Assembly (NCBI RefSeq): GCF_025290835.2
Contig: NZ_JAOCQD020000001.1
Coordinates: forward strand, 744,001-808,000
Source: Aquabacterium sp. OR-4
GTDB lineage: Bacteria; Pseudomonadota; Gammaproteobacteria; Burkholderiales; Burkholderiaceae_C
Reading direction: 5' to 3'
DNA: 64,000 nucleotides
The notes under the pieces are model-generated. The model did no database searches and was not told where the DNA came from. It was given only the letters and a program-made list of their open reading frames with translations. Positions 29,493 through 62,271 of this stretch are shown here, piece after piece. The translations under genes were made by a program, and so were the position numbers. Each line of letters opens with the position of its first letter. The stretch's first letter is position 1.

Positions 29493-29507
29493 TGTAGCCT
29501 GACTACA
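29493..29507. promoter_or_regulatory. HexR-like operator upstream of glk-hexR
   Basis: TGTAGCCTGACTACA has perfect 5-bp arms (TGTAG/CTACA) and a 5-bp centre. It lies about 155 bp before the glk-hexR start. HexR of Proteobacteria is known to bind a palindrome of the form TGTA..TACA, so the fused regulator may repress its own gene here. Binding is inferred. Confidence 0.65.
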
Positions 29508-29611
29508 TCTGACGCCGCGTTCGGCGTGCTAGTGGTTTACCAAGGCATTTCCCTCTAAGAGAGCGGCCAAATTCTGAGTTGCCTTGGGGATGTTGCCGCT
29601 TGCTGTGGTGC

Positions 29612-29626
29612 TGTAGTTTTGCTACC
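29612..29626. promoter_or_regulatory. HexR-like operator upstream of the second glk
   Basis: TGTAGTTTTGCTACC has arms with one mismatch (last base C instead of A). It lies 173 bp before the second glucokinase start and overlaps a weak -10 (TAGTTT at 29614-29619), a position fit for repression. Confidence 0.55.
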
Positions 29627-29798
29627 TTCGGCCCGCGGCGTGCAGTGTTTGCGCGGCCTGGCCCGGTGATTGCTCGGGTTGGGTGGCCGGGTTGAACGCA
29701 GCGCAGCAAGGGCCTGTTCGATCACGGTGCCCGTCCCCGACAACCCGAGCCTCCGCACTGTGGCCTTGACGCCGACGACCGAGACCCCAGCAGTTCTC

Positions 29799-30857
29799 AT
29801 GCCTGCCACCACTGCCGCCTCGCGCGACGAGGCAGCGGCGCAGGCGCGCGATTTCCCCCGACTGGTGGCCGACATTGGCGGCACCAACGCCCGTTTTGGC
29901 TGGATCGAGGCGCCCGGTGCACCGGTGTCGCTGGTGCGCACGCTTTCGGTGCCGGCCTTTGCCGGGCCGGGCGAGGCAGCGCGCAGCTACCTGGATGACC
30001 TGGCCACCCAGCAGGGTGGCGCGTGGCGCGCACCACGCCACGCGGCCTTTGCCGTGGCCACCGCGGTGGCCGGTGACCGGGTGGCGTTCACCAACAGCCA
30101 CTGGGATTTTTCGCGCGAGGCGGTGCGCCAGGCGCTGGGCGTCGAGCAACTGCTGATGCTCAACGACTTCGAGGCGCTGGCGCTGTCGCTGCCCTGTCTG
30201 GGCGCAGCGCAACTGCGCTGCCCGGATGGGCGGCTGCCGCGGGCGCCGGGCCACGCCGCGCCCGGCACACCGGCGCCTCTGGCCGTGGTGGGGCCGGGCA
30301 CCGGCCTGGGCGTGGGGGCGGTGGTGCACACCCGCCAGGGCTGGGTGGCCCTGCCTGGCGAAGGGGGGCATGCCACGCTGGCTGCCGGCCATGCCCTCGA
30401 GGCCGAGGTGATCGGTGTGGTGCGGCGGCAGTTTGCGCATGTGTCGGCCGAGCGCCTGCTGTCGGGCATTGGCCTGCCGCTGCTGCACCAGGCCTTGGGC
30501 GAGGTGCACGGCCAGCCCGTGGCCGCACCCTGGAGCGCCGAGGCCATCGTCAACGGCGCGCTGGCCGGCGATCAGGCGCTGTGCGGCGACACCGTCGACC
30601 TGTTCTGTGCCTTGCTGGGCAGCTTTGCCGGCAATGTGGCGCTCACGCTGGGTGCACGCGGTGGCGTGTACATCGGCGGCGGCATCGTGCCGCGGTTTGC
30701 CGACCGTTTCTTTGCGTCGGCCTTCCGCGAGCGCTTCGAGGCCAAGGGCCGCTTCCAGGCCTATCTGGCGGCCATTCCCACCGCGCTGATCACCGACACG
30801 CTGGCGGCGCTGACCGGCGGCGCGCTGGCCATCGAGCAGCAGGTGGCGCTGGGTTGA
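29799..30857 (+). CDS. glk: Glucokinase (second copy)
   Basis: The 352-residue protein phosphorylates glucose to glucose 6-phosphate in the cytosol. It has the motifs LVADIGGTNARFGW from residue 22, FTNSHWDFS, LNDFEALALSLP, VVGPGTGLGVGAV, LPGEGGHA and GGVYIGGGIVPRF. Unlike its divergent neighbour it has no regulator domain. The ATG at 29799 is chosen as the start. Having two glucokinases next to an alpha-glucan pathway fits a high flux of free glucose from MalQ and amylases. The two share the core motifs but differ in many loops, so they are not a recent duplication. Confidence 0.94.
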   Translation: MPATTAASRDEAAAQARDFPRLVADIGGTNARFGWIEAPGAPVSLVRTLSVPAFAGPGEAARSYLDDLATQQGGAWRAPRHAAFAVATAVAGDRVAFTNSHWDFSREAVRQALGVEQLLMLNDFEALALSLPCLGAAQLRCPDGRLPRAPGHAAPGTPAPLAVVGPGTGLGVGAVVHTRQGWVALPGEGGHATLAAGHALEAEVIGVVRRQFAHVSAERLLSGIGLPLLHQALGEVHGQPVAAPWSAEAIVNGALAGDQALCGDTVDLFCALLGSFAGNVALTLGARGGVYIGGGIVPRFADRFFASAFRERFEAKGRFQAYLAAIPTALITDTLAALTGGALAIEQQVALG

Positions 30858-31164: not shown

Positions 31165-31179
31165 TGTAGTTCAGCTACA
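31165..31179. promoter_or_regulatory. HexR-like operator upstream of the TonB receptor
   Basis: TGTAGTTCAGCTACA has perfect arms and extends by one pair on each side to TTGTAG..CTACAA (31164-31180). It stands 250 bp before the receptor start and about 130 bp before the best promoter candidate, so it may act from an upstream promoter not identified here. Confidence 0.65.
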
Positions 31180-31345
31180 AGTCACACCACGATGGGCTGT
31201 GGTTGATTGGCCACATTGCCCCCGGATTTTCCCGTATTTCCAAGGGATTACACCGATCAAATGGGGCCATTCAGGCCTCGATCCGAGAGGTTGGCACCGC
31301 GCCTGCGCTTGCCCGTCAATCTAGTTTTAGTACAAACTTGTGTCG

Positions 31346-31360
31346 TTGCAGATTTTGCAA
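31346..31360. promoter_or_regulatory. Palindrome TTGCA-N5-TGCAA before the TonB receptor
   Basis: TTGCAGATTTTGCAA has perfect 5-bp arms and lies 70 bp upstream of the receptor start, just after the TACAAA box. Its half-site differs from the TGTAG operator, so it may bind a second regulator, for example one of the LacI type that often controls maltodextrin genes. No such regulator gene is in the window. Confidence 0.4.
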
Positions 31361-31429
31361 TCCCTGTCGGAATGCCCTGGCCGCACGGCCGCCAGGGGGC
31401 GGGGCGATCAAGGGCACGAGGAGATCAAC

Positions 31430-34168
31430 ATGACGACATCCATCCGGCGCGCGCGCAGCGGTCGCGGCCAAGCGGGGTTCCAGGTGCGGCCGGTGGCCGT
31501 GGGCTGCGCCATGCTGTTGCTGGGCGCCAGCGAGCTGGCCATGGCGCAGCAGGCCAGCCAGGAAGTGGTGGTGACCGGCATCCGCCGCGGCATCGAGAGC
31601 GCGATCTCGGTGAAGAAAAACGCCGACGGCATCGTCGAGGCGGTGTCGGCCGAAGACATCGGCAAGCTGCCCGACAGCAGCATCGCCGAAGCGCTGGCAC
31701 GCCTGCCGGGCCTGACGGCGCAACGCGTGAACGGCCGTGCCCAGGAGATCCAGGTGCGCGGTCTGGCCGGGCAGTTTGCGAGCACGCTGCTCAACGGGCG
31801 CGAGCAGGTCAGCACCGGCGACAACCGGGCGGCCGAGTTCGACCAGTACCCGTCCGAGCTGCTGGGCGGCGTGTCGATCTACAAGACGCCCTACGCCAAC
31901 CTGGTGGGTCAGGGCCTGTCGGGCACCATCGACCTGCAGACGGTGCGGCCGCTCAACTTTGCCAGCCGCTCGATCGCGGTGAACCTGCGCGGCGAGCGCA
32001 ACTCGATGGGCAGCCTCAATGACGGCGGTTCCGGGGCCAATGGCAGCCGCTTCAGCGCCTCGTACATCGACCAGTTCGCCAACCGCACCATCGGCGTGGC
32101 GCTGGGCTATGCGCGCCTGGATTCGCCCAACCAGAACCAGTACTACCGCAGCTGGGGCTACCCCAGCGGCAGCGGCACGATCGGCGCCACCACCTACAAC
32201 GATGTGCGCCTGCCGGGCGGCATCCAGGTGCGGGCCGAGTCGGCCGAGCAGGTGCGCGACGGCCTGATGGCGGTGCTGCAGTACAAGCCGAACAAGGACT
32301 TCGAGAGCCTGGTCGACCTGTACTACTCGAAGTTCGAGAAAACCGCGCTGCAGCGCGGCTTCGAGAGCGGCCTGGCCTGGTCGGGTGCCACGCTCACCAA
32401 CCCCAAGGTGAGCGGCGCCACGCAGACCGCGCCCAACACCTACAGCGGCGGCGTGCTCACCTCGGCAGACTACGTGGGCGTCAAGCCGGTGTTCCGGCAT
32501 GACCTGAACACCCGCGAGGACGAGATCAAGGCCATTGGCTGGAACAACAAGCTCAAGCTCGCCGGCTGGACCGCCACCACCGACCTGAGCTGGTCGAAGG
32601 CCACGCGCTCGGAGTCGATCCTCGAGCTGTACTCGGGCACCGTGCCCGGCAGCACCGGCGCCACCGACACCTTCACCGTCAACCTGCCCGATGGCGGCGG
32701 CGTGCCCAGCATCCGCGCCGGGCTGAACTACGCCGATCCGTCGATCATCCGCCTGGTCGATTCGGGCGGCTGGGGCCAGGCCGGCTACCTGAAGCAGCCC
32801 AAGGTGAGCGACGAGCTCAAGTCGGTGCGCATGGGGCTGCAACGCGATGTCTCGGCGGGCTTCGTCAGCCGCATCGACCTGGGCGCCAACTACACCGAGC
32901 GCGAGAAGTCGCGCGACGTGCCCGAGTTCTTCACCGACCTGAAGGCCGCGCCCACCACGGTGCCGGCCAGCATGCTGCGCGGCAGCACCTCGCTGGCCTT
33001 CGTCGGCATTCCGTCGATGCTCAGCTACGACCCGGCCCAGGCCCTGGCCCAGCTGTACACGCTGCGCGCCAACGTCAACAACGCCGACATCATCAACAAG
33101 CAGTGGACGGTGCGCGAGAAGATCAGCACCGGCTACCTGAAGGCCGACATCGACACCGAGGTGATGGGCAAGGGCCTGCGCGGCAATGCCGGCGTGCAGG
33201 TGGTGCACACCAACCAGAGCTCGACCGCCTACGACGTGGATCTGTCCGACCGCTCCAAGCAGCGCCAGCAGACCGCCGGCACCACCTACACCGATGTGCT
33301 GCCCAGCCTGAACCTGGCGCTGTCGCTGAACGAGTCGCAGGTGGTGCGCCTGGGCATGGCCAAGCAGATGGCCCGGCCACGCATGGACGACATGCGCGCC
33401 ACGCGCAAGTTCGACGTGGACACCAGCCGCGTGCCGACGGTGTGGACCGGCGACGGCGGCAACCCCGAGCTCAAGCCCTGGCGCGCCGACGCGCTGGACC
33501 TGTCGTTCGAGCAGTACTTCGGCAACAAGGGCTACGTGGCCCTGGCCGGCTACTACAAGGACCTGAAGAGCTACATCTACAAGCAGAAGGTGCCGCGCAG
33601 CTTTGCCGGCGTCACGGTGCCCACCGGCAAGACCGCGCCCACCTCCGACATCGGCCTGTTCGAGCAGCCGGCCAATGGCAGCGGCGGGTCGATCAGCGGT
33701 GCCGAGTTCTCGCTGTCGGTGCCGCTGTCGATGCTGAGCAAGTCGCTCGACGGCTTTGGCGTGGTCTACACCGCGTCGGTCACCGAGAGCCAGATCCAGC
33801 CCTTCGGGCCGGGTGACACGCGGCCGCTGCCGGGCCTGTCGAAGAAGGTCTGGAACCTGACCGGCTACTACGAGAAGTACGGCTTCTCGGCACGTGCCAG
33901 CTACCGCTACCGCGGCCCGTACGTGGCCGAGGTCACCGGCTTCGGCGCCGACCGCGCGTTCGAGTACGCCAAGGCCGAGAGCATCGTCGACCTGCAGCTG
34001 GGCTACGAGTTCAGCAGCGGGCCGGCCAAGGGCCTGTCGCTGCTGGTGCAGGTGAACAACGCCACCAACGAGCCCTACGAGGAGTACTACAACAACGACC
34101 CGACCCAGGTGCGCCAGAACACCAAGTACGGCCGCACCATGCTCTTCGGCATCAACTACAAGATGTGA
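31430..34168 (+). CDS. TonB-dependent receptor, probably for maltodextrins
   Basis: The 912-residue outer membrane protein has a signal peptide cleaved after about residue 39 (AMA), a plug domain (about 45-180, with EVVVTGIRRGIESAI, SIAEALARLPGLTAQRVNGR and GGVSIYKTP) and a 22-strand barrel ending GRTMLFGINYKM. The plug style resembles the Caulobacter and Xanthomonas receptors for maltodextrin and other sugars. The ATG at 31430 follows gaggagatcaac. It likely replaces LamB in this organism by energised uptake through TonB-ExbBD. The substrate is inferred from the neighbours: glucokinases, amylases and a maltose ABC transporter. Confidence 0.9.
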   Translation: MTTSIRRARSGRGQAGFQVRPVAVGCAMLLLGASELAMAQQASQEVVVTGIRRGIESAISVKKNADGIVEAVSAEDIGKLPDSSIAEALARLPGLTAQRVNGRAQEIQVRGLAGQFASTLLNGREQVSTGDNRAAEFDQYPSELLGGVSIYKTPYANLVGQGLSGTIDLQTVRPLNFASRSIAVNLRGERNSMGSLNDGGSGANGSRFSASYIDQFANRTIGVALGYARLDSPNQNQYYRSWGYPSGSGTIGATTYNDVRLPGGIQVRAESAEQVRDGLMAVLQYKPNKDFESLVDLYYSKFEKTALQRGFESGLAWSGATLTNPKVSGATQTAPNTYSGGVLTSADYVGVKPVFRHDLNTREDEIKAIGWNNKLKLAGWTATTDLSWSKATRSESILELYSGTVPGSTGATDTFTVNLPDGGGVPSIRAGLNYADPSIIRLVDSGGWGQAGYLKQPKVSDELKSVRMGLQRDVSAGFVSRIDLGANYTEREKSRDVPEFFTDLKAAPTTVPASMLRGSTSLAFVGIPSMLSYDPAQALAQLYTLRANVNNADIINKQWTVREKISTGYLKADIDTEVMGKGLRGNAGVQVVHTNQSSTAYDVDLSDRSKQRQQTAGTTYTDVLPSLNLALSLNESQVVRLGMAKQMARPRMDDMRATRKFDVDTSRVPTVWTGDGGNPELKPWRADALDLSFEQYFGNKGYVALAGYYKDLKSYIYKQKVPRSFAGVTVPTGKTAPTSDIGLFEQPANGSGGSISGAEFSLSVPLSMLSKSLDGFGVVYTASVTESQIQPFGPGDTRPLPGLSKKVWNLTGYYEKYGFSARASYRYRGPYVAEVTGFGADRAFEYAKAESIVDLQLGYEFSSGPAKGLSLLVQVNNATNEPYEEYYNNDPTQVRQNTKYGRTMLFGINYKM

Positions 34169-34274
34169 TGCCGCCGGCGCCGCGGCCTGCCGCCACGGCG
34201 CCGCGTCGGGTACCCCGGGCCCTGCGCTGCCGCTGCAGCCAGGGCCTTGTGCATTGAACGCAGGCGAGGCTGGC

Positions 34275-35780
34275 ATGCAGGACGAACGTGCAGTGCGCGA
34301 GGTGGTGGTCGTGGGCGGCGGCAGCGCCGGCTGGATGGTGGCCGCCGCGCTGGCCCAGGTGCTGGAGGGGCGCGTGCGCATCCAGCTGGTGGAGTCCGAC
34401 GAGATCGGCACCGTGGGCGTGGGCGAGGCCACCATTCCGCAGATGCGCCTGTTCAACGGCGCGCTGGGCATCGACGAGCACGAGTTCCTGCGCGCCACCC
34501 AGGGCACCTACAAGCTGGGCATCGAGTTCGTCGACTGGGGCCAGCGCGGCGAGCGCTACCTGCACAGCTTTGGCAGCGTGGGGCAGGACCTGGGCCTGGT
34601 GCCCTTTCACCACTACTGGCTGAAGATGCAGCGCCAGGGCGGCGCGCGGCCGCTGGGCCACTACTGCCTGAACACCGTGGCGGCGCTGGCCGCGCGCTTT
34701 GCGCCGCAGGCCCGGGCGCCCGGCCTGCCGACGCTGGACACCGCCTACGCCTACCACTTCGACGCCGGGCTGTACGCGCGCTATCTGCGCCACTACAGCG
34801 AGGCCCGGGGCGTGCTGCGCACCGAAGGCCGCATTGCCGATGTGCAGCTGCGTGCGGGCGACGGCCATGTGCAGGCACTGCAGCTGGCCGACGGCCGGCG
34901 CATCGAGGGCGAGCTGTTCATCGATTGCTCGGGCTTTGCCGGCCTGCTGATCGAGCGCGCGCTGCACACCGGCTACGACGACTGGAGCCACTGGCTGCCG
35001 TGCGACCGCGCCGTGGCCGTGCCCTGCGAGCACCGCGCGGCGCCCCAGCCCTACACCCGCGCCAGTGCGCGCGGCGCGGGCTGGCAGTGGCGCATTCCGC
35101 TGCAGCACCGCATCGGCAACGGCCAGGTGTTCAGCAGCCGCCACCTCAGCGAGGACGAGGCCACCGCGCAACTGCTGGCCACGCTGGACGGCCCGGCGCT
35201 GGCCGAGCCGCGGGCGCTGCGCTTCGTCACCGGCAAGCGGCGCAAGCTGTGGCACCGCAACGTGGTGGCGGTGGGCCTGGCCAGCGGCTTTCTCGAGCCG
35301 CTGGAATCCACCAGCCTGTACCTGGTGCAGGCCAGCATCTCGCGGCTGCTGCAGTTTTTTCCCACGCGCGACTTCGAGCCGCTCAACACCGCCGAGCACA
35401 ACCGCCAGGCCGATGCCGAGTTCGAACGCGTGCGCGACTTCATCATCCTGCACTACCACCTCACCCGGCGCGACGACACGCCGTTCTGGAACCATGTGCG
35501 CACGATGGAGGTGCCCGACAGCCTGCGCGAGAAGCTGGCGCTGTTTGGCGCCACCGGGCGGCTGTTTCGCGCGCCGCAGGACATCTTCAGCGAGCCCAGC
35601 TGGCTGCAGGTGGCGGTGGGCCAGGGCCTGGTGCCGCAGGCGCACCAGCCGCTGGCCGACGTGCTGAGCCACGACGAGGTGGCCTTCTTCCTGGGCAACA
35701 TCGAGCAGGGCGTGGCGCGGCATGCGGCCGCCATGCCGCTGCATGCCGACTACCTGGCCGCGCACTGCCGCGCCGCCTGA
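34275..35780 (+). CDS. Flavin-dependent tryptophan-halogenase-like protein
   Basis: The 501-residue protein has the FAD motif VVVGGGSAGWM near residues 11-21 and the halogenase signature WQWRIP (270-275). A lysine at 80 (TYKLGIEF) and LEPLEST near 341-347 match the catalytic Lys and Glu region of PrnA. So the chemistry of a flavin halogenase looks intact, but the substrate is unknown. Such genes often follow TonB receptors in Caulobacter and Xanthomonas sugar loci, where their role is unclear. The ATG at 34275 follows gcgagg; a TTG at 34254 is an alternative. It lies 106 bp after the receptor gene. Confidence 0.9.
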   Translation: MQDERAVREVVVVGGGSAGWMVAAALAQVLEGRVRIQLVESDEIGTVGVGEATIPQMRLFNGALGIDEHEFLRATQGTYKLGIEFVDWGQRGERYLHSFGSVGQDLGLVPFHHYWLKMQRQGGARPLGHYCLNTVAALAARFAPQARAPGLPTLDTAYAYHFDAGLYARYLRHYSEARGVLRTEGRIADVQLRAGDGHVQALQLADGRRIEGELFIDCSGFAGLLIERALHTGYDDWSHWLPCDRAVAVPCEHRAAPQPYTRASARGAGWQWRIPLQHRIGNGQVFSSRHLSEDEATAQLLATLDGPALAEPRALRFVTGKRRKLWHRNVVAVGLASGFLEPLESTSLYLVQASISRLLQFFPTRDFEPLNTAEHNRQADAEFERVRDFIILHYHLTRRDDTPFWNHVRTMEVPDSLREKLALFGATGRLFRAPQDIFSEPSWLQVAVGQGLVPQAHQPLADVLSHDEVAFFLGNIEQGVARHAAAMPLHADYLAAHCRAA

Positions 35781-36724: not shown

Positions 36725-39430
36725 CTACTGGCGCGGCGCCCTCGGCGTCGGCGCCGGCACCAGCAGCACGCCGTGGCGTGCCGGCAGCTGCAGCTGCAGC
36801 CAGCCCTGGCGCGCCTGCAGCGCCGGGCCGCCCAGCAGATCGGCAAAGCGCGTGTCGGCCGGCAGGCCGGCCGGCAGGGCCACGCGCAGGCTGCGCGGCC
36901 CATCGGCATTGCTGTAGCCGGTGATGGCCCAGCGGGCCGGCGCGGCGGCCTGGCCGGTGCCGCCACCCGTGCCCGGGCCGGGCGCCAGGCGGCGCGCCAG
37001 CACCAGCGCCTGCTCGTCCACATGCAGCGGCGCCAGCAGCGTGCCGCGGCTGAGCACCGGGTGGGCCTTGCGCAGCGCGATCAGGCGGCGCACCTCGTCT
37101 TCGAGCACGGTGTCGGGCTGGCCGCCTTCGTCGGCCCAGGGGTAGGGCGCGCGGTTGTACGGGTCTTCGCCGCCGCCCAGGCCGACCTCGTCGCCGTAGT
37201 AGATGGCCGGCGCGCCGGGGTAGCTCAGCTGCAGCAGCATGGCCAGGCGCAGGCGCTGGCGTGCCAGGGCGCGCTGCGGCGCGGGCGTGGTGGCGCCCTT
37301 GTCGCCCAGCACCCAGCTGGCCCGGGGCTGGTCGTGGCTGGAGAGCAGGTTCATCAGCGCATGAAAGGCCGGTGGCGGCACCTGCTCGCGCAGGTGCTCC
37401 AGCTGGGCCGCCATGGCCTGGGCACTGCCGCCCGCGGCCCAGTCGAGCACCGCGTTGCGGAAGATGTAGTTCATCGTCGAGTCGAACATGTCGCCCAGCA
37501 GGTGCTTGGCGGGGTCGAACCAGGTCTCGGCGATGGTCAGCGCGTCGGGCCGGGTGGCCTTGACCACGCCGCGCCATTCGCGCCAGAAGTCGTCGGGCAC
37601 CCAGGGCGCCACATCCATGCGCCAGCCGGCGGCGCCGCGCTGCAGCCAGTGGCGCGTGACCGAGTCGGGCGCGCGGTAGGCAAAGTGGCGCCACGCGGGG
37701 GCGTTCTTGTCGAGCTCGGGCAGGTCGGTCACGCCAACCCAGCCCTGGTACTGCTTGTCGGGCTCGCTCTGGCTGGTGTCGAAGCGGTACCAGCTGGCAT
37801 AGGGCGAGGCCGGGTTGGGCCGGCCGCCGGCAAAAGCACCGACAGGAGCGCCGGCCGACGGCCCGCTGCCCGCGTGGTTGCCAAAGCGGTCGAAGTACAC
37901 CGAGTCGCTGCCGGTGTGGTTGAGCGAGGCATCGGGGATGAAGCGCAGGCCCAGGCGCGCGGCGCTGGCGGTGAGGCGCTCGAAATCGGCATTGCTGCCA
38001 AAGCCGGGATCGATGCGGTGGTAGTCGGCCGTGTCGTACTTGTGGTTGCTGGCGGCCAGGAACAGCGGCGTGCTGTAGATCGCGGTGATGCCCAGGCGCT
38101 GCAGGTGCGGCAGCTTGTCGATCAGGCCGGCGATGTCGCCGCCGAAGAAGTCGTTGTTATAGAACGAGTCCGAGCCATCGCCGCTGCCGGGCCGGTAGGG
38201 CGTGCCGATCCAGCGCGCCTGGGCCTCGATCTGGTGGTGCTGGTGGTAGCGGCGCGTGCCGGGCTGCGGGTCGTTGCGCCGGTCGCCGTTGCGAAAGCGC
38301 TCGGGAAAGACGTAGTAGTACACCGCCTGCTGTGCCCAGGCCGGCACCCGGAAGCCCGGCTGGTAGACGCTGAGCCGGTAGCGCCGGATGGCGGTGGGCG
38401 AGGCCGGGCCGGCGGCCGGCATGGCCGCCACCGTGGCCAGGCCGCCCACACCCTTCTCGCGCGTCCAGGCCAGGGGTTCGGCGTTGTTGTGCAGCACCCA
38501 GGTCTGGCCGCCGATGCGGGCCTCGAACCAGTAGCCCTGCACGCCCACGGCGTTGAACTGCCAGGTCGCGCTGAACTGCTCGCGGCCCGCGCCCAGGCGT
38601 GTGCGCTGCATCGGCACCCGTGCCAGCGCGGTGTAGCGCAGCACGCTCTGGTCGCCTTCGAGTGTGCGCTGCTCGAGCACCAGCGTGAGGCTGTCCACGC
38701 CCGCGGCCGCCGCCACCGCGAAGCGCACGCGCTGCCCGGCCGGCACGGCGCCAAAGGGCTGCTTGTGCGCCAGCGCGCGCGAGTCGTAGCGCAGGCTGCG
38801 GGCCACCGGGTCGCTGACCTCGGCTGCGCGCAGCTCGGTGAGCTGGCAGCGCGGCTGGCCGGGCATCAGCGCCTGGCAGTCGTCGATCTGCAGTTGCGGC
38901 GGGCCGCCGGCCACCGGCCAGCGCAGCACCAGGCGGTGCAGGCCGCCGGCAAAGTGGCGCTGCAGCTCGCGGCCGCGGGCGGCCAGCGTGAGCGGGCCGC
39001 TGGCGGGCGGCATGGCCGCGCCGCCGGGCCCGGCGGGCTGGCCGAAATCGGCATCGGCGCTCCAGGCCTCGTCGCCGAGCTTGAAGCGCTGCTCGCCCTC
39101 CAGCGGCAGCACCAGCTCGTGGCGATCGCAGGCCCAGGGCAGGCGCTGGCGCTCGTCGGCCGTCCAGCCGTTGAGGCTGCCGCGCAGGTACAGCGTGCGG
39201 CCGGCCAGCGGGTCGGGCTGGCAGCCGGCCGGCGGGCTGCCGGGGGCGGCGGGCGTGGTGGCTGCGTTGGGTGCGTTGGCTGCGTTCGCTGCGGTGCTGG
39301 CGATATTGGCGGTCGAGGGCGCGGGTGCGGGCTCGGCCGCCGTGGCGCTGCCCGCGGCGGCCAGCAGCAGCGGCAACAGCAGGGGACGCCAGCTTGCCGG
39401 CGTCAGCGCGCGGCGCAGCGCGGCGCTCAT
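36725..39430 (-). CDS. Exported GH13 alpha-amylase family enzyme
   Basis: The 901-residue protein has a signal peptide ([20 protein letters not shown] onward, cleavage near ATAA), an Ala/Asn/Pro-rich linker, a starch-binding-like domain (LYLRGSLNGWTADERQ) and a GH13 barrel. The catalytic residues are Asp near 606 (GWRMDVAPW), Glu near 635 (LTIAETWFD) and Asp near 700 (LLSSHDQPR). It resembles cyclomaltodextrinase or neopullulanase enzymes but is larger, so the exact product is uncertain. The ATG overlaps the stop of the upstream amylase (ATGA). It is the last gene of the mal operon. Confidence 0.9.
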   Translation of the reverse strand: MSAALRRALTPASWRPLLLPLLLAAAGSATAAEPAPAPSTANIASTAANAANAPNAATTPAAPGSPPAGCQPDPLAGRTLYLRGSLNGWTADERQRLPWACDRHELVLPLEGEQRFKLGDEAWSADADFGQPAGPGGAAMPPASGPLTLAARGRELQRHFAGGLHRLVLRWPVAGGPPQLQIDDCQALMPGQPRCQLTELRAAEVSDPVARSLRYDSRALAHKQPFGAVPAGQRVRFAVAAAAGVDSLTLVLEQRTLEGDQSVLRYTALARVPMQRTRLGAGREQFSATWQFNAVGVQGYWFEARIGGQTWVLHNNAEPLAWTREKGVGGLATVAAMPAAGPASPTAIRRYRLSVYQPGFRVPAWAQQAVYYYVFPERFRNGDRRNDPQPGTRRYHQHHQIEAQARWIGTPYRPGSGDGSDSFYNNDFFGGDIAGLIDKLPHLQRLGITAIYSTPLFLAASNHKYDTADYHRIDPGFGSNADFERLTASAARLGLRFIPDASLNHTGSDSVYFDRFGNHAGSGPSAGAPVGAFAGGRPNPASPYASWYRFDTSQSEPDKQYQGWVGVTDLPELDKNAPAWRHFAYRAPDSVTRHWLQRGAAGWRMDVAPWVPDDFWREWRGVVKATRPDALTIAETWFDPAKHLLGDMFDSTMNYIFRNAVLDWAAGGSAQAMAAQLEHLREQVPPPAFHALMNLLSSHDQPRASWVLGDKGATTPAPQRALARQRLRLAMLLQLSYPGAPAIYYGDEVGLGGGEDPYNRAPYPWADEGGQPDTVLEDEVRRLIALRKAHPVLSRGTLLAPLHVDEQALVLARRLAPGPGTGGGTGQAAAPARWAITGYSNADGPRSLRVALPAGLPADTRFADLLGGPALQARQGWLQLQLPARHGVLLVPAPTPRAPRQ

Positions 39431-41061
39431 TGCACGCGCTTGTAGTTGCTGTAGCCGCCGGCCGTGCTGGGTTGCGGCTTGAGCACCCACACGGTCTGCG
39501 GCGGCAGGCTGGCCATCACCATGCCGGCCTGCAGATTGACCACCTGGCCGCTGAGCTGGTCGACCAGGTTGTCGCCGTCCATCAGCTTGGAGTTGGCCAC
39601 CATCACCGTGGTGTCGATGGCGGTCTTGCCCGGGTTGGCGATCACCAGCACGGTGTCGGTGGCGCGGTCGGTGTGGCGCTCGAAGGCCAGCACGTTGCCG
39701 CTGGCCTCGGCGCTGCGGAAGTCGCCCACGCGCAGCGCGCGGTGGGCCTTGCGCAGCGCGGTGAGCTGGCGTGTCCAGGCCAGGTCGGGGTGCTGGGCGG
39801 CCACGCGGTCCCAGCGCATCGGGCCGCGCATCTCGGGGTCGTCGCCACCTTCCATGCCCACCTCGCTGCCGTAGTACAGGTTCACCGCGCCGGGCAGCGT
39901 GAACATCAGCACCTGGGCCAGACGGCGGGCCTTGGCGTCGGGGATGGTGGTGGCCACGCGGAAGGTGTCGTGGTTGTCGAGGTAGAGCCAGCTCTTGAGC
40001 AGGTGCTCGTAGTCGGCGTCGCGCAGCATGCGGGCCGTCATGCGCTGGAAGGCGGGCGCGTCCAGCGTGCCGTTGGCCAGCGCGATCAGCAGCTTGCGCA
40101 GGCCGAAGTGCATCACGCCGTCGACCGACGGGAACCACTCGCGCGGGTAGTTCGGAATCTCGCCCAGCACCAGCGAGCCGGGCTTCTCGGCATGCGCGGC
40201 GCGGGTCAGCTCGTCGAGGTAGCGAAAGCCGATGTCGAAGGCCACGTCCAGGCGCCAGCCGTCGGCGCCGTCGCGCAGGTAGCTGCGCACCACCGAATCG
40301 GGTGCGCCCCACAGGTGCTGGCGCACGGCCGGCAGCTCGAGGTTCAGCTCGGGCAGGTTCTGTGCGTTCCACCAGGTGCGGGTGCCGCCCTGGTACTGCG
40401 GGCCGAACACGAACCAGTCCTTGCTGCCGGCCTCGCCGGCGGCGGGCACGCGGCCTTCGCGCTCGGCCTCGGCGGCGCGGTAGCGTGGCGCGTTGCGGCC
40501 CATGTGGTTGAACACGCCGTCGAGCACCAGCTTCAGGCCGCGGGCGCGGGCCTCGGCGGCCAGGCGGCGCAGGTCGTCGCGCGTGCCGTACTCGGGCGAG
40601 ATCTGCTGGTAGTCGAGCGCGTCGTACTTGTGGTTGGTGTAGGCCAGCACGATCGGGTTGAGGTACAGCACCTCGGCGCCGAGCTGCTGCACATGGTCGA
40701 GGCGCGCGGTGGTGCTGGCCAGGTCGCCGCCCCAGAAGTCGATCTCGTGGCTCCAGAGCTTTTCGGCCTCGAGGTAGCGGCCGCGGCGCGGCTCCTCGGT
40801 CCAGCCGCGCAGGGTCTTGGGCGCCGGGTACAGCGCGCGCTTGGCCGCCAGGTTGGCGCTGGGCGCAAAGCGGTCGACCAGCACCTGGTAGACGATGGCG
40901 CCGTTGCGCCAGTCGGCCTCGCGCTGGGTGTAGCGGCCGGCCAGCGGCGCGTCAAAACTGTTGGCGTAGGTCATCGGGGTGGGGGTCTGGGCCAGCGCGC
41001 CGGCTCCGAGCTGGGCCGCCAGCGTGGCGGCAACAAGAAGGGGCTTCATGAGGCGGGTCAT
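39427..41061 (-). CDS. Exported GH13 alpha-amylase or cyclomaltodextrinase
   Basis: The 544-residue protein starts with a signal peptide (about 1-25, GALA-Q). The GH13 barrel shows DFWGGDLA, then LDGVFNH, the nucleophile Asp near 272 (GWRLDVAFD), Glu near 301 (LVLGEIPNY) and Asp near 365 (YLDNHDTFR). It probably hydrolyses maltodextrins in the periplasm before or after uptake. Its start overlaps the malG stop and its stop overlaps the next amylase start, both as ATGA, so both enzymes are translationally coupled to the ABC transporter genes. Confidence 0.92.
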
Positions 41062-43504: not shown

Positions 43505-43577
43505 GTTGCTTGTTTCTTGTGCTTGTCGTCGCGGTTGCCGCAAGCCGCGGCCCGCAAGGGCCAGGCGCCTGTGACGC

Positions 43578-44825: not shown

Positions 44826-44857
44826 GGTCAGCGGCGGCCGTGGGCCTGTGCGACCGC

Positions 44858-46003
<1,146 letters not shown>

Positions 46004-46101
46004 GGGTTTGTCACCTCGGGCTGCACCGCGCTGGGGCGGGCTGCCTTGTTGTTGCTGTGGCCAGGCCGGCACGGCCCATGCATGGGGTGTGGGTGGCCTG
46101 T

Positions 46102-46137: not shown

Positions 46138-46222
46138 CGGTGCTTGCCCGCATCGCCAAATGCCGAACACTTGAAAAAACAAGCACTTAGCGATTTTCAA
46201 GACCAACCTCGGGGAATCCCGA

Positions 46223-46237
46223 TGTAGGATAACTACA
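46223..46237. promoter_or_regulatory. HexR-like operator upstream of glgP
   Basis: TGTAGGATAACTACA has perfect TGTAG/CTACA arms and lies 50 bp before the glgP start at 46287. It contains TAGGAT, a possible -10, although no good -35 is seen 17 bp upstream. Together with the site at 46102 it brackets the divergent malK/glgP control region. Confidence 0.7.
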
Positions 46238-46286
46238 CAAACAGGCCGCCAGTGGCGATACTTTCCGTCCCCAAGGAGTGGTGCCC

Positions 46287-48752
<2,466 letters not shown>

Positions 48753-48879: not shown

Positions 48880-51137
48880 ATGCTGAGCGACGACGATCTG
48901 GCCGCGCTGCGCGAGGCGCGGCACCCCGACCCCTTTGCCGTGCTGGGCCTGCACGCGGTGGGCAAGGCGCTGTGGGCGCGCGCCTTCCTGCCCGGTGCGC
49001 GGGCCGTGACCCTGCGCGACACGGCCACCGGCCGCGCCGTGGTGGATCTGCCGCCGCGGCTGGATGCCCAAGGCCAGGCCAGCGGCCTGTTCGAGGCCCC
49101 GGTGCCGCGCCGCGTCAATGCCTTCGACTACCGGCTCGACATCACCTGGGCCGATGGCAGCAGCAGCCTGCTGGGCGATGCCTACCGCTGCGGCCCGCTG
49201 ATCGGCGAGCAGGATCTGCACTACCTGGGCGAGGGCTCGCACCTGCGGCCGTTCGAGGTGCTGGGCGCGCATCCGCAAACCCTGGGCGAGGGCGTGCAGG
49301 CCATCGCCGGCACGCAGTTCGCGGTGTGGGCGCCCAATGCGGCGCGGGTCAGCGTGGTGGGCAGCTTCAATGGCTGGGACGGCCGCCGCCACCCGATGCG
49401 CGGGCGCGGCCCGTCGGGCGTGTGGGAGCTGTTCATTCCCGGCGTGGCGCCGGGCGACCTGTACAAGTTCGAGATCCGCACGCGCGACATGGGCGATGGT
49501 GGCGCCGTGCTGCCGCTCAAGGCCGACCCCTACGCCCGCGCCAGCCAGCTGCGCCCGGCCACCGCCAGCGTGGTGGCCGCGCCGCTGCCGCCGCGCCGCG
49601 CGCTGCCGGCCGGCCGCGCCGAGGCCAACCGGCGCGATGCGCCGATGGCGGTGTACGAGGTGCACCTGGGCTCGTGGCGGCGCCATCCCGATGGCCGCTT
49701 TCACAGCTGGGACGACCTGGCCGCCGCGCTGCCGGCCTATGCCGCCGGCCTGGGCTTCACCCACATCGAGCTGCTGCCGATCAGCGAGCACCCGTTCGAC
49801 GGCAGCTGGGGTTACCAGACCCTGGGCCTGTATGCCACCAGCGCCCGCTTTACCGCGCCCACCGATGACGGCGCCCGCAGCGGCGACCCCGAGGGCTTCA
49901 TGCGCTTTGTCGCCGCCTGCCATGCGCAGGGCGTGGGCGTGCTGCTGGACTGGGTGCCGGCGCACTTTCCGTCCGATGCCCATGGCCTGGCCCAGTTCGA
50001 CGGCAGCGCGCTGTACGAGTACGCCGACCCGCGCGAAGGTTTCCACCGCGACTGGAACACGCTGATCTACAACTTCGGCCGCCACGAGGTGCGCAACTTC
50101 CTGGTCGGCTCGGCGCTGTACTGGATCGAGCGCTGCGGCGTGGATGGCCTGCGCGTCGACGCCGTGGCCTCGATGCTCTACCGCGACTACTCGCGCCCCG
50201 CAGGGCAGTGGATTCCCAATGCCCAGGGCGGGCGCGAGAACCTCGAGGCCATCGCCTTCCTGAAGCGCACCAACGAGGTCATCGGCGCCGAATGCCCCGG
50301 CGCCATCACCGTGGCCGAGGAGAGCACGGCCTTTGCGGGCGTCAGCGCGCCCACCTTTGCCGGCGGCCTGGGTTTTCACTTCAAGTGGAACATGGGCTGG
50401 ATGAACGACACCCTGGCCTACATGGCCGAAGACCCGGTCAACCGCCGCTGGCACCACGGCCGCATGACCTTCGGCATGGTCTACGCGTTCAGCGAGAACT
50501 TCGTGCTGCCGCTCTCGCACGACGAGGTGGTGCACGGCAAGCGCAGCATCCTGGGCCGCATGCCCGGTGATGACTGGCAGCGCTTTGCCAACCTGCGCGC
50601 CTACTACGGCTTCATGTGGGGCCACCCCGGCAAGAAGCTGCTGTTCATGGGCCAGGAGTTTGCGCAGCCCACCGAGTGGAACCACGACACCGAGCTGCCC
50701 TGGCAGCTGCTGGGCGATGCCCGCCACGCCGGCGTGCAGCGCCTGGTGGGCGACCTGAACCGCCTGATGCGTGCCCAGCCCGCGCTGCACCGGCTGGATG
50801 CCGAGGCCAGCGGCTTCGAATGGGTCAGCGCCGACGCGGCCGACGAATCGGTGCTGGCCTGGGTGCGGCGCGACGGCCAGGGGGGTCAGGTGATCGTGCT
50901 CAGCAACCTCACGCCGGTGCCGCGCGAGGGCTTTCGCCTGGGGGTTCCGGAGGGTGTCGCCGCCTGGCAGGAGGTGCTCAACACCGACTCGGCCCACTAC
51001 GGCGGCAGCAACCTGGGCAATGGCGGCGCGCCGCTGCGGGTGCGGCCGCAGCCGGCGCACGGGCGCATGCAGTCGATCACGCTGACCTTGCCGCCGCTGG
51101 CCACGCTGTTTCTGGTTCCTGCCCCTGTTGAATCGAC

Positions 51138-51141
<4 letters not shown>
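48880..51141 (+). CDS. glgB: 1,4-alpha-glucan branching enzyme
   Basis: The 753-residue GH13 enzyme makes alpha-1,6 branches. An N-terminal part (about 1-110) and a CBM48-like domain (about 120-230, [20 protein letters not shown]) precede the barrel with [13 protein letters not shown]. The catalytic residues are Asp near 427 ([16 protein letters not shown]), Glu near 480 (TVAEESTAF) and Asp near 548 ([12 protein letters not shown]). The gene overlaps glgX by 4 nt. No glgA or glgC for glycogen synthesis is in the window, so it stands in a mainly degradative operon. Confidence 0.96.
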
Positions 51142-53258
<2,117 letters not shown>

Positions 53259-53309: not shown

Positions 53310-54881
53310 ATGAACCTCCACCAACGCGCCTCGGGCGTGCTGCTGCACATCACCTCGCTGCCCGGCCCGCATGGCATTGGCGACTTCGGCCCGGCGGCGC
53401 GGCATTTCGTCGACTGGCTGGCCGGCTGCGGCCAGCGCATCTGGCAATGGCTGCCCACCACGCCGATCGGCCCCGGCAACTCGCCCTACCAAAGCGTCTC
53501 GGCCTTTGCCGGCAGCCCGCTGATGGTGGCGCTGGAGCCGCTGATCGCGGCCGGCTGGCTGGCCGCACCGGCCACCGTGCCGCCACCGCACCGCGACGCG
53601 CTGGGCATTGCGCGCGTCGACTTCGGCGCCGTGATTCCCTGGCGCATGGCCCAGCTGCGCGAGGCCTTTGCCGGCTACAGCGCGCGCAGCACGCCGGCCG
53701 AGCGCGTGGCGCTGGCGGCCTGGGCCCAGGCCCAGGCTGAAACCGGCGACTGGCTGGACGACTACTGCCTGTTCATGGCACTGGAGACCGCCCACGGCGG
53801 CCAGCCCTGGTGGCTGTGGCCGGCGCCGCTGCGCGCCCGCGACGCCGCAGCGCTGAGCGCCGCGCGCGCCGAGCACGCCACCGAGATCGCCTTCTGGCAA
53901 TGGCTGCAATGGTGTTTTGACACCCAGTGCGTGGCGCTCAAGGCCTATGCCAACAGCAAGGGCGTGAGCATCCTGGGCGACCTGCCCATCTTCATCGCCC
54001 ACCACAGCGCCGACTGCTGGGCACGCCCTGACCTGTACGAGCTGGACGCGCACTTCCAGCCCACCGTGGTGGCCGGCGTGCCGCCCGACGACCTGGGCCC
54101 CGAAGGCCAGCGCTGGGGCAACCCCATGTACCGCTGGGAGCGCATGGCCGCCGAGGGCTGGGCCTGGTGGACGGCGCGCGTGAAACGCATGCTGCACCAG
54201 GCCGATGCCTTCCGCATCGACCACTTCCGCGGCTTTGCGGGCTACTACGAGATCCCGTCCAGCAGCCCCGATGCGCGCACCGGCCAGTGGAAGAAGGGCC
54301 CGGGCAAGGCGCTGTTCGATGCCATTTCCAAGGCCTTGGGTGATGTGCCCATCGTGGCCGAAGACCTGGGCTTCATCACGCCCGACGTGCACGAACTGCG
54401 CGATGCGCTGGGCTACCCCGGCATGAAGATCCTGCAGTTCGGCTTTGGCGGCGACGGCGAGCACGAGTTTCTGCCGCACAACTGGCGCCGCGACGTGGTG
54501 GTGTACACCGGCACGCACGACAACGACACCGCCCACGGCTGGTGGCATGCCGCGCCCGAGCGCGAGCGGCGTTATGCCGGCACCTACCTGGCCTGCGGCG
54601 CGCACGATGTGCACTGGGCCATGATCCGCGCCGCGCTCAACTCGGTGGCCAACCTGGCCATCTTTCCGCTGCAGGACGTGCTGGGCCTGCCCAGCGCCCA
54701 CCGCATGAACGTGCCCGGCACCCTGGGCGACCCGAACTGGACCTGGCGCTTCGACTGGCCCATGGTGGGCGACGAGCCCGGCCGCGTGCTGGGCCTGCTG
54801 ACCGCCGCCAGCGGCCGTGGCGCGTTCGAGCTGCTGGGCGTGGGCGTGCCGGAGAAGCGGCCGCCGCCGGCTTCTTACTGA
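53310..54881 (+). CDS. malQ: 4-alpha-glucanotransferase (amylomaltase)
   Basis: The 523-residue GH77 enzyme rearranges maltodextrins and frees glucose. Hallmarks are MNLHQRASGVLLHITSLPGP, LGDLPIFIAHHSADCWA, and the catalytic Asp near 304 (FRIDHFRGF), Glu near 351 (PIVAEDLGFI) and Asp near 403 (YTGTHDNDT). It lies 51 bp after glgX in the same direction. The glucose it releases would feed the two glucokinases at the other end of the locus. It ends 3 bp from the convergent fic stop. Confidence 0.96.
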   Translation: MNLHQRASGVLLHITSLPGPHGIGDFGPAARHFVDWLAGCGQRIWQWLPTTPIGPGNSPYQSVSAFAGSPLMVALEPLIAAGWLAAPATVPPPHRDALGIARVDFGAVIPWRMAQLREAFAGYSARSTPAERVALAAWAQAQAETGDWLDDYCLFMALETAHGGQPWWLWPAPLRARDAAALSAARAEHATEIAFWQWLQWCFDTQCVALKAYANSKGVSILGDLPIFIAHHSADCWARPDLYELDAHFQPTVVAGVPPDDLGPEGQRWGNPMYRWERMAAEGWAWWTARVKRMLHQADAFRIDHFRGFAGYYEIPSSSPDARTGQWKKGPGKALFDAISKALGDVPIVAEDLGFITPDVHELRDALGYPGMKILQFGFGGDGEHEFLPHNWRRDVVVYTGTHDNDTAHGWWHAAPERERRYAGTYLACGAHDVHWAMIRAALNSVANLAIFPLQDVLGLPSAHRMNVPGTLGDPNWTWRFDWPMVGDEPGRVLGLLTAASGRGAFELLGVGVPEKRPPPASY

Positions 54882-60451: not shown

Positions 60452-60471
60452 CCGGGCGCGGCCCGCGGGGC

Positions 60472-62241
60472 TCAGCGCCCGATCACGCGGTACACGCGCA
60501 GGCTTTGCGCCGGCAGCGCCACCTGGGCCTGGCCGCTGCCATCGGCCGCGGCGGGCGGCGCATCGGCCGGCCACAGCGCCTGCAGGCGTGCGCCGCGCGG
60601 CAACCCGGGCACACGGGCCTGGCCGGGCGTGGTGGCGTAGTTCATCAGTACCAGCGTGCGCTCGCGGCCCAGCGCGCGCTGCCAGCCCAGCAGCAGGCCG
60701 TCGGCAAAACTGTGCTCGAAGCGGCCGCGGGCGATGCTGGGCAGCGTGTTGCGCAGGCCGATCATGGCGCGGTAGAAGTGCCACAGCGAGTCGGCCTGCT
60801 GCCGCTGCGATTGCAGGTTGTGCGTGGCGCGGTTGGGTGCCAGCGGGCGGAAGGGCGTGCCGGTGCTGAAGCCGGTGTTGCGGCCGTCGGCGGTGTCGGC
60901 CGTCCAGCTCATGGGGGCGCGCAGCGGCAGATCGCCGGGCAGCTCGGCCACGCCGGCCTGGCCCACTTCTTCGCCGTAGTAGATGAAGGGTGTGCCGGGC
61001 TGCAGCAGGTAGCCGGCGGCGGCCAGCTGGTAGCGGGCCTGCCAGCCGGGCGTGCCGCCGCCCACCTGGTCCCACAGGCGCTGGCCGGCAAAGATGTCGT
61101 GGTTGGAGACAAAGCTGGCCATGCCGGGCCGCGCGCTGCGGTAGTAGCGCGCCAGCTCGGCCACCGATTCGGGCCGGCCCATGGCCGCGCCCACGAAGTG
61201 CTGGGTGTAGCCGAACGCAAACGCGCCGCCGCACACGGCCGGGTCGCCCCAGGCCTGCGGCTGTGCGGTGGCCTCGCACACCACATGGCGGCGCGGGTAG
61301 GCGCGGATCAGGTCTTGCAGGCCTTTGGTGATGCGCCGGCTTTCGGGCTGGTCGTTCCAGTCCTTGGCGCTGTTCTCGATCAGGTGCGGCACGGCGTCCA
61401 GCCGAAAGCCGGCCAGCCCGCGGTTGAGCCAGAAGCGCAGGCTGTCGCGGTGGTAGCGCAGCACGGCCGGGTGGCGCAGGTTGAAGTCGGGCATGTGCGG
61501 CCCGAAGGTGGCGAAGTAGAAGCCGCGTGCCGTGTCGTCGGGGCGCGGCAGGGCTTTCGGATCGCCGTTGAAATCCCAGGGCGCGCTGGCCAGGTGGTAC
61601 CAGGGGTCCTGGCCCCAGATGTCCCAGCCGCGCGGGCGCTCGCCGTCGGCCCACACGAACCAGTCGCGCCAGCGGCTGGCCGGATTGGCGCGCGCCGCCA
61701 CGAAAAACGCATGCGCCGCCGCGGCATGGTTGACCACGTAATCCATGATGATGCCGATGCCGCGCTGGCGGGCCTGGCGCACCAGCTCGTCCAGATCGGC
61801 CAGCGTGCCGTAGGCCGGCTCGATGGCGCGGTGGTCGGTGGTGGCGTAGCCGTGGTCGTGGTCGCCGCTGGCGGTGATCGGCATCAGCCAGATGCCGCGG
61901 ATGCCCAGCGCCTGCAGCTCGTCAAGCTTGCCGATGAGGCCGCGCAGGTCGCCGATGCCGTCGCCGTTGCTGTCGGCATAGGCGCGCACGAAGATCTCCA
62001 TGAACGCGCCGTGCTGCCAGTGCGGCGGCAGCGGCTTCAGCCCGCGCTCGGCGCTGCGTGCCGGCACCGGGCGGGTGTCGGGCCAGGGCGGCGTGGCCGT
62101 GCTGGTGGCCGTGCTGGTGGTCGTGCTGGTGGTCGTGCTGGTGGCGGCGCTGGTGCCGGCGTTGGCGTTGGCGGCACCAGCCACCCACAGCAGGGCCAGG
62201 GCCCCGGCGGCGGCCCGGCACAGGCGACTTGGTGTTCGCAT
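60472..62241 (-). CDS. Exported GH13 alpha-amylase
   Basis: The 589-residue protein has a signal peptide (about 1-27, ANANA) and a Thr/Ser-rich linker (about 30-50) encoded by a 12-bp tandem repeat. The GH13 barrel has FMEIFVRAYADSNGDGIGDL, MDYVVNHAAA, and the catalytic Asp near 282 (GFRLDAVPHLIE), Glu near 323 (VVCEATAQ) and Asp near 382 (SNHDIFAG). It is divergent from a pullulanase, and a HexR-like operator stands in the 73-bp gap. A maltose-forming or trehalose-synthase-like activity is possible, but the sequence supports only GH13. Confidence 0.92.
   Translation of the reverse strand: MRTPSRLCRAAAGALALLWVAGAANANAGTSAATSTTTSTTTSTATSTATPPWPDTRPVPARSAERGLKPLPPHWQHGAFMEIFVRAYADSNGDGIGDLRGLIGKLDELQALGIRGIWLMPITASGDHDHGYATTDHRAIEPAYGTLADLDELVRQARQRGIGIIMDYVVNHAAAAHAFFVAARANPASRWRDWFVWADGERPRGWDIWGQDPWYHLASAPWDFNGDPKALPRPDDTARGFYFATFGPHMPDFNLRHPAVLRYHRDSLRFWLNRGLAGFRLDAVPHLIENSAKDWNDQPESRRITKGLQDLIRAYPRRHVVCEATAQPQAWGDPAVCGGAFAFGYTQHFVGAAMGRPESVAELARYYRSARPGMASFVSNHDIFAGQRLWDQVGGGTPGWQARYQLAAAGYLLQPGTPFIYYGEEVGQAGVAELPGDLPLRAPMSWTADTADGRNTGFSTGTPFRPLAPNRATHNLQSQRQQADSLWHFYRAMIGLRNTLPSIARGRFEHSFADGLLLGWQRALGRERTLVLMNYATTPGQARVPGLPRGARLQALWPADAPPAAADGSGQAQVALPAQSLRVYRVIGR
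62099..62146 (-). repeat. 12-bp tandem repeat inside the amylase linker
   Basis: Four copies of GTGCTGGTGGYC (last copy ending CG) on the + strand encode the Thr/Ser-rich linker of the amylase on the minus strand. Copy number could vary by slippage without breaking the frame, because the unit is a multiple of 3. Confidence 0.8.
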
Positions 62242-62256
62242 GGAGAGACTCTGGTT

Positions 62257-62271
62257 TGTAGTGAAACTACA
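62257..62271. promoter_or_regulatory. HexR-like operator between the amylase and pullulanase genes
   Basis: TGTAGTGAAACTACA has perfect TGTAG/CTACA arms with an AT-rich centre. It is in the 73-bp gap between the divergent amylase (start 62241) and pullulanase (start 62315), so one bound protein could block both promoters. Confidence 0.7.

Follow-up and report, generated by a model that had tools for sequence, protein, structure and literature searches.

Two kinds of RpiR-type transcription factor, HexR and RccR, are among the closest described counterparts of the system treated here, i.e. a TGTAG-N5-CTACA operator and a predicted fusion of a glucokinase with a HexR-like regulator (hereafter the fused protein) in the alpha-glucan locus of Aquabacterium sp. 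OR-4. The palindrome of gammaproteobacterial HexR has the same size as this operator, which carries G.C at positions 5 and 11 where that of HexR carries A.T. Proteobacterial HexR is a regulator of sugar metabolism homologous to the regulator half of the fused protein, and its regulons, as described in PMC5343134, vary among lineages and have zwf, edd, eda, glk and pyk at their core. In Pseudomonas, RccR binds TGTAGTAAAACTACA and a 15-bp TGTAGT/ACTACA palindrome in vitro, as reported from surface plasmon resonance and footprinting in PMC5489143; its targets, according to that paper and to PMC10810197, are aceEF, the glyoxylate shunt and gluconeogenesis, whereas the predicted targets of the fused protein are alpha-glucan genes. 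RccR (PDB 8K3B), with an RpiR helix-turn-helix (HTH) and a SIS domain, is the closest solved structure to the fused regulator half, and its palindrome appears to be matched by the consensus of our operator profile (TGTAGTTNAACTACA). It differs in having no glucokinase fusion and an intact pocket for 2-keto-3-deoxy-6-phosphogluconate (KDPG). A bifunctional glucokinase/RpiR regulator is named for Paraburkholderia in PMC12568896. The Burkholderia bifunctional regulator (NCBIfam NF010701) shares domain order and recognition helix with the fused protein and has TGTAGTTAAACTACA before its zwf operon; its glucokinase motifs are intact, the Ser139 of its SIS domain is kept and its target is central metabolism, whereas the protein analysed here lies over alpha-glucan genes. 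ROK repressors (e.g. Mlc and NagC) likewise combine a DNA-binding domain with a sugar-binding fold of the kinase type. However, the ROK kinase is not a PF02685 glucokinase and the HTH is another one, so that any resemblance to the fused protein would be convergent. LacI-type regulators (i.e. MalR, MdxR and MalI) likewise control maltodextrin genes locally, according to PMC4052901, but belong to an unrelated protein family.

We analysed a window of 64,000 bp (the whole stretch of DNA, C1:744001-808000 of a 6,634,285-bp assembly). From its letters alone, the first-pass annotation had listed six copies of the inverted repeat and linked them to the fused protein. All six lie where they were placed, four with perfect arms and two with one mismatch, and a seventh, weaker site is added here. 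We consider it very probable that they represent a conserved, locus-specific operator that the fused protein would read. The fused gene and the sites (palindromic, given without strand) are as follows.

27428..29338, minus strand: fused regulator Glk-RpiR-SIS (glucokinase, residues 9-322; RpiR-type HTH, 336-406; SIS, 458-585), delimited with Pfam, NCBIfam and alignment
29493..29507: operator TGTAGCCTGACTACA, perfect arms, on the fused-gene side of the divergent promoter region between the fused gene and a separate glucokinase (glk2)
29612..29626: second operator TGTAGTTTTGCTACC, one mismatch, on the glk2 side, 119 bp from the site at 29493
31165..31179: operator TGTAGTTCAGCTACA, perfect arms, upstream of a TonB-dependent receptor gene
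31320..31334: weaker conserved site TCTAGTTTTAGTACA, profile score 13.5, 155 bp from the site at 31165, absent from the first-pass list
46102..46116: operator TGTAGAGAATATACA on the malK promoter, one mismatch
46223..46237: operator TGTAGGATAACTACA on the glgP side, perfect arms, 121 bp from the site at 46102
62257..62271: operator TGTAGTGAAACTACA between divergent amylase and pullulanase genes, perfect arms

The start of the fused gene is placed at ATG 29338, close to the starts of its relatives; the open frame extends to 29488.

Perfect copies of TGTAG-N5-CTACA are rare. The whole genome holds four, all in the alpha-glucan locus, so the motif is not equally frequent elsewhere, the outcome that the first-pass annotation had named as telling against it; for comparison, the 120 fusion-less genomes of the family hold 29 perfect sites, i.e. 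0.24 per genome. Within the window, the ribosomal, molybdate and insertion-sequence regions are free of the site at 0-1 mismatch, as first claimed. At up to two mismatches there are 31 matches in the window against 6.7 expected from shuffles (shuffle maximum 14), of which 25 have two mismatches and are dispersed through the window. One-mismatch sites are common (122 places genome-wide at up to one mismatch), and by count alone the sites at 29612 and 46102 therefore carry no significance. They still matter because they are intergenic and recurrent in relatives, and because the site at 46102 also covers the malK -10 hexamer: in the promoter-like sequence TTGTCA-17-TATATT, the hexamer TATATT (46114-46109, minus strand) falls inside this operator. 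Ten of the 116 other one-mismatch places were inspected, and all ten are inside predicted coding sequence. A degenerate match near 62345 was dropped, as its profile score never exceeds 6, and a search of the genome for TGTA-N7-TACA and similar patterns gave no convincing extra target (seven of ten inspected places are in predicted coding sequence). The profile was built from 64 distinct 21-mers of perfect sites, and for this reason only its matches to imperfect sites are informative.

The site recurs at the same genes in relatives. Locus counts here refer to distinct loci, with the window included and duplicate genome/locus rows removed. All 14 divergent malK/glgP gaps contain a perfect site; with four added loci the count is 16/18, and the remaining two have one mismatch. 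A site of the form TGTATATTNTCTACA, on the malK side, is present in 7/13 of the relatives' malK/glgP gaps (hand count). Divergent glk2/fused gaps carry a perfect site in 20/34 loci and a site within 0-1 mismatch in 34/34, and the sequence at 29612 is identical letter by letter in 22 of these 34 (hand count). By contrast, none of six loci in which glk2 and the fused gene are co-oriented holds a site at up to one mismatch. Glk2/receptor gaps are perfect in 15/21 and within 0-1 mismatch in 20/21, and the weak companion site of the receptor promoter region is found in 24/24 rows, 146-164 bp from the strong one (132 bp in one row). The corresponding counts for pulA/amylase gaps are 4/7 and 6/7. Shuffled gaps reach 0-1 mismatch in 0-1.3%. 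In one genome (G062) these genes are on separate contigs and the sites remain with them. Looping of paired operators in one helical phase was considered and dropped, since the distance between the two sites is not constant (66-221 bp in glk2/fused gaps, mostly 87-121 bp in malK/glgP gaps). In two genera (G007, L084:7382-10072; G077, L103:7870-10707), a perfect operator precedes an operon of a TonB-like gene followed by ExbB and ExbD. No Pfam family matches the TonB-like proteins, whose identity we presume from position and likeness; the regulon may extend to the energy supply of the receptor.

The operator also accompanies the fusion across genomes. We compared 150 genomes of the family, counting 30 as fused (at least 53 percent identity in the regulator half). 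A perfect TGTAG-N5-CTACA occurs in 23/30 fused genomes versus 17/120 others (p 9e-11), while TGTAA-N5-TTACA is unlinked to the fusion (10/30 versus 40/120, p 0.58). Most listed sites of fused genomes (43 of 54) are no more than 40 kb away from the fused gene, and one-mismatch sites are observed in two fused genomes that have no perfect one (G027 and G144). MalF (E 1e-60) is found in 28 genomes, i.e. 26/30 fused and 2/120 others; the latter two (G100 and G116) lack a perfect TGTAG site, and in the stretch examined none of their profile scores exceeds 14.

Where the fusion has other neighbours, the site has other neighbours too. In Burkholderia, Paraburkholderia, Caballeronia, Pandoraea and their kin, the fusion is the last gene of the zwf operon. 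A perfect site is present upstream of zwf in 29/29 Burkholderia-type zwf...fusion loci, within 400 bp in 27 of them, and 26 of these 27 have the sequence given above for the Burkholderia regulator. Five of the zwf sites (L198, L200, L201, L216 and L217) were called coding by the gene caller, which we think reflects over-long gene starts. In Caldimonas, Aquabacterium and Derxia, the fusion and a separate glucokinase are some 9-12 kb apart, and sites occur upstream of or close to the latter. The recognition helix of the fusion in the window is VSQPTVIRFCRS, and the helix VSQPTVIRFCR is identical in 169/169 proteins of clade A and 59/61 of clade B. Co-occurrence, the differing targets and the RccR precedent together support the first-pass view of the palindrome as an operator-like element of the alpha-glucan locus, with the fused RpiR half as its most likely reader.

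The genome has only two RpiR-type HTH genes. The second (C2:1870602) encodes a stand-alone HexR; it follows zwf, with tal and pgi running divergently, and a TGTAA-N5-TTACA site, TGTAACTGAGTTACA, precedes the zwf of the pair. This protein has the classic location, operator type and KDPG residues of HexR. Among 29 distinct zwf/tal gaps near stand-alone HexR genes, TGTAG is perfect in none and within one mismatch in one, while TGTAA is perfect in 6/29 and within 0-1 mismatch in 18/29. The two operators differ by one symmetric base pair, the one named above. Both proteins score below the cut-off of NCBIfam HexR NF008451 (296), with 240.9 for the fused protein and 237.7 for the stand-alone one, and zwf lies elsewhere in the genome rather than next to the fused gene (edd and eda were not looked for). 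The suggestion that the fused protein is the HexR of this genome for central metabolism is not supported, as a stand-alone HexR with its own TGTAA-N5-TTACA site stands beside zwf. In a tree of 49 regulator halves, stand-alone HexR proteins form one group (100/99), nearly all fusions group together (89/75, an open fork), and a firm group unites clade A with L195 and L070 (100/99). As the residue behind the G/A preference we considered the Cys that follows the recognition helix in fused proteins and RccR, where stand-alone HexR has Tyr; we make no claim on it because some other RpiR proteins break the pattern.

Two further observations concern operator types. In two Burkholderiales genomes (L309/L325 and L302/L328), another RpiR gene is itself preceded by TGTAG-N5-CTACA (TGTAGAAAATCTACA and TGTAGCTTTTCTACA); these genes are probably autoregulated and RccR-like, and the operator type is therefore not private to the fusion. 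In G058 (L151:3933-5981), a distant Glk-RpiR fusion with the helix VSTPTVMRFCRS, which falls outside the fusion group of the tree, lies beside maltose-transport-like genes and has a TGTAA-N5-TTACA site 94 bp upstream.

The regulator half of the fused protein consists of an RpiR HTH (PF01418) followed by a SIS domain (PF01380), both above cut-off. According to PMC10810197, RccR contacts KDPG through S139, H148, R152, H164, S183, S185, S188, K270 and R277, and it no longer bound DNA when S139, H148 or H164 was replaced by alanine. The stand-alone HexR of the genome retains 9/9 of these residues, and S139, R152, H164, S183, S185, K270 and R277 are retained in 38/38 stand-alone proteins. The fusion in the window has Y F R R S N L S S at the nine columns, i.e. 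2/9 (R152 and S183), the last two columns being poorly aligned. For a broader view we used 169 clade A sequences (130 once near-duplicates at 95 percent likeness are taken out) and 61 of clade B, a set skewed to close relatives because 120 members are the best matches of one search. In clade A, S139 is Ser in 1 and Tyr in 149, H148 is His in 2 and Phe in 132, H164 is His in 3 and Arg in 158, and S188 is Ser in none and Leu in 133, while S185 is still Ser in 81. A crude K270...R277 tail pattern is met in 0/169 clade A proteins versus 25/38 stand-alone ones. Clade B retains S139 in 54/61. As residues whose alanine mutants abolished DNA binding by RccR are replaced, the allostery of the fused protein must differ from that of RccR. 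A structure model of the fused protein (mean predicted local distance difference test 76.7, predicted template modelling score 0.52) shows both halves as folded, with a loop of poor model quality at 140-165.

The glucokinase half of the fusion matches PF02685 (349 bits) and TIGR00749 (305.8 versus a cut-off of 225), and retains N103, D104, E161, H164 and E191, aligned to E. coli N99, D100, E157, H160 and E187. The glucose-pocket residues N103, E161, H164 and E191 are kept in all 230 fusions. By contrast, the nucleotide loop has changed from DIGGTN to DIGGTF in the window, and its Asn is present in 0/169 clade A fusions (Tyr in 123, Phe in 37) versus 36/38 neighbouring glucokinases. In clade B the catalytic Asp is found in 49/61; eleven of the others (Caldimonas, Aquabacterium, Piscinibacter, Rhizobacter and kin) have Asn in its place, and one has Gly. 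The genome has two further PF02685 glucokinases, i.e. the adjacent glk2 and a full one outside the window (G000:C1:1403047), and all 30 fused genomes of the family hold at least two PF02685 matches. In 6 of 12 named genomes examined, all of Burkholderia type, the fusion is the sole PF02685 protein and has DIGGTN, NDF and Asp intact. This pattern of loop and Asp fits, without proving, a change of role from catalysis to sensing in genomes that have another glucokinase, and we read the fused glucokinase half as possibly drifting towards a glucose sensor. Three fusions have a broken nucleotide loop (L059 of G144, L070 of G083, and L195, with AIDGSE, EIDGE and DIDGAR); judged by this motif they are candidates for proteins without kinase activity.

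We propose that the RpiR half of the fused protein, a paralogue of the stand-alone HexR beside zwf, binds operators resembling the profile consensus. It would be a local transcription factor of alpha-glucan use, most likely a repressor, with a regulon of the TonB receptor, MalEFGK, GlgP-GlgB-GlgX-MalQ, the GH13 enzymes, pullulanase, the separate glucokinase and the fused gene itself. Binding of free glucose from intracellular maltodextrin breakdown to the glucokinase half would lead to release of the repressor, and the neighbouring glucokinase would phosphorylate the glucose. On the basis of what was computed (the site and how it is conserved, its presence together with the fusion, the residue changes, and the second paralogue with its own site), we infer with good support that regulator and operator are linked; that binding results in repression, and that glucose is the signal, are hypotheses that we put forward. 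The account as a whole (operator, fused reader and repression) seems likely to us. More tentative, and in our estimate a little less than even, is the idea that in clade A the glucokinase was recruited as the free-glucose sensor of the repressor, the RpiR phosphosugar pocket being given up, the glucose pocket kept and the loop changed.

Several points weigh against this proposal. A perfect site is present in 17 fusion-less genomes and missing from seven fused ones, i.e. G144, G027 and G087 of clade A and G083, G096, G066 and G091 of clade B, and 21/53 clade B loci have no site in the examined stretch. Two genomes with distant fusions that are outside the 30 (G058 and G074) lack a TGTAG site, and their inclusion changes the counts to 23/32 versus 17/118 (p 9e-10); the site upstream of the G058 fusion is of TGTAA type. 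Limnohabitans (G087, L188) has the same recognition helix, but the perfect sites on the contig of its fusion are TGTAA and not TGTAG. The relatives compared are not mutually independent. As regards repression, scans of the glk2, receptor and pulA regions gave no promoter-like match, so that promoter occlusion is supported at malK only. As regards the sensor, the roles of N99, E157, H160 and E187 as glucose ligands and of D100 as catalytic residue are carried over from E. coli Glk, and because the catalytic Asp is kept in 169/169 clade A fusions, their predicted glucokinase half may still be an active enzyme.

The retained Asp also bears on another explanation, the one proposed in the first-pass annotation, that the fused protein reads the operators but is truly bifunctional, phosphorylating glucose and responding to sugar phosphate through its SIS domain. 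The Burkholderia-type genomes in which an intact fusion is the only PF02685 protein fit this explanation, as do the kept equivalents of R152 and S183 and the fact that phosphosugars are the usual ligands of the SIS domain in RpiR proteins. The family name of NF010701 (bifunctional regulator/glucokinase) points the same way; the fused protein has its Glk-RpiR-SIS domain order and scores 791.3, below the cut-off of 920. However, Ser139, His148, His164 and Ser188 and the K270...R277 pattern are almost or entirely gone from clade A, the loop Asn is lost there and kept in neighbouring glucokinases, and at least one additional PF02685 match exists in every fused genome of the family. We regard a bifunctional protein as possible but rather unlikely; sensing of sugar phosphate as in HexR or RccR is not supported, and sensing through the KDPG pocket is unlikely for clade A, in which the contact residues are replaced.

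The other explanations concern the reader of the operator. An unrelated regulator encoded elsewhere (e.g. of LacI or LysR type), with the fused gene as mere neighbour and target, would agree with the LacI type of many maltose regulators (PMC4052901), and in G116, a genome with MalEFGK but no fusion, a LacI-type gene is the neighbour of malG. Yet the site accompanies the fusion even where the target is a zwf operon (the 29 Burkholderia-type loci), the MalF genomes without fusion have no perfect TGTAG site, and RccR provides an RpiR fold that reads the same palindrome (PMC5489143); this makes an unrelated reader improbable. Reading by the stand-alone HexR beside zwf is less probable still. It belongs to the same family, it coexists with the fused protein in the genome and the operators are one symmetric base pair apart, but the gaps next to it are of TGTAA type with no perfect TGTAG in 29, and a HexR-kind RpiR match occurs in 110/150 genomes, yet TGTAG sites track the fusion. 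A chance or compositional artefact has a negligible probability: the pattern is common at one mismatch, but the four perfect sites of the genome are all at the locus and the same gaps carry sites in other genera, a conservation that refutes it. The fused protein thus remains our preferred reader.

The protein family and the type of palindrome are already known. What sets the present case apart is the proposed alpha-glucan regulon, together with the division between the fused protein and a second HexR and with a KDPG pocket that has been lost. In open-licence papers, a search with five operator sequences matched only the RccR paper, and we found no account of an alpha-glucan regulon or its regulator in the open-licence literature linking HexR/RpiR with glucokinase, maltose or maltodextrin. 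RegPrecise may well contain the Burkholderia zwf site already. For the use of alpha-glucans by starch-degrading Burkholderiales (e.g. Rubrivivax, Roseateles and kin), our results offer candidate operators and targets together with a named regulator. Two paralogues per cell, with operators one symmetric base pair apart, are a clean system for repressor divergence after duplication, and the TGTAA/TGTAG pair, if real, would be a natural one-base-pair specificity switch within one cell. The graded series from sole-glucokinase fusions to Asp-less fusions makes a change from enzyme to sensor testable. Such a glucokinase sensor, if confirmed, would be an invention parallel to the ROK repressors, made from a different kinase family.

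The other genes of the locus are as follows.

29799..30857, plus strand: separate glucokinase glk2 with the usual DIGGTNAR loop (PF02685; TIGR00749 above cut-off)
31340..34168, plus strand: TonB-dependent receptor, TIGR01782 type, likely start ATG 31430
34254..35780, plus strand: tryptophan-halogenase-family flavoprotein (PF04820)
36725..40372, minus strand: frame whose C-terminal half encodes a GH13 alpha-amylase-family enzyme (PF00128), upstream end of the gene not fixed
39427..41451, minus strand: frame of a second GH13 enzyme with a maltogenic-amylase C-terminal domain (PF00128; PF16657 slightly below cut-off)
41058..41936, minus strand: malG, ABC permease (PF00528)
41954..43543, minus strand: malF, ABC permease with MalF P2 domain (PF14785, PF00528)
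43578..44966, minus strand: malE, maltodextrin-binding protein, frame (PF01547)
44858..46186, minus strand: malK, ABC ATPase, frame (PF00005, PF17912), true start probably about 46002
46278..48752, plus strand: glgP, glucan phosphorylase (PF00343)
48880..51141, plus strand: glgB, branching enzyme (PF22019, PF02922)
51138..53258, plus strand: glgX-like debranching enzyme (PF02922, PF00128)
53310..54881, plus strand: malQ, 4-alpha-glucanotransferase (PF02446)
60472..62241, minus strand: GH13 amylase-family enzyme (PF00128)
62315..64000, plus strand: pullulanase pulA, truncated by the window end (PF17967, PF02922; best NCBIfam match TIGR02103, below cut-off for the cut protein)

The fused gene and glk2 are back to back, malGFEK (minus) and glgP-glgB-glgX-malQ (plus) run on opposite strands, and the amylase-family gene is divergent from pulA. 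A Fic/DOC-family gene (54885-56120) lies on the opposite strand between malQ and the molybdate genes. The latter (56876-60451) encode a ModE-like regulator (HTH_1 + TOBE) and a molybdate-type ABC transporter, and no operator is found there. The tryptophan-halogenase-family flavoprotein gene (34254-35780) is near the TonB receptor gene here and in the loci of many relatives. In G140, a perfect operator lies upstream of another tryptophan-halogenase-family gene (L106).

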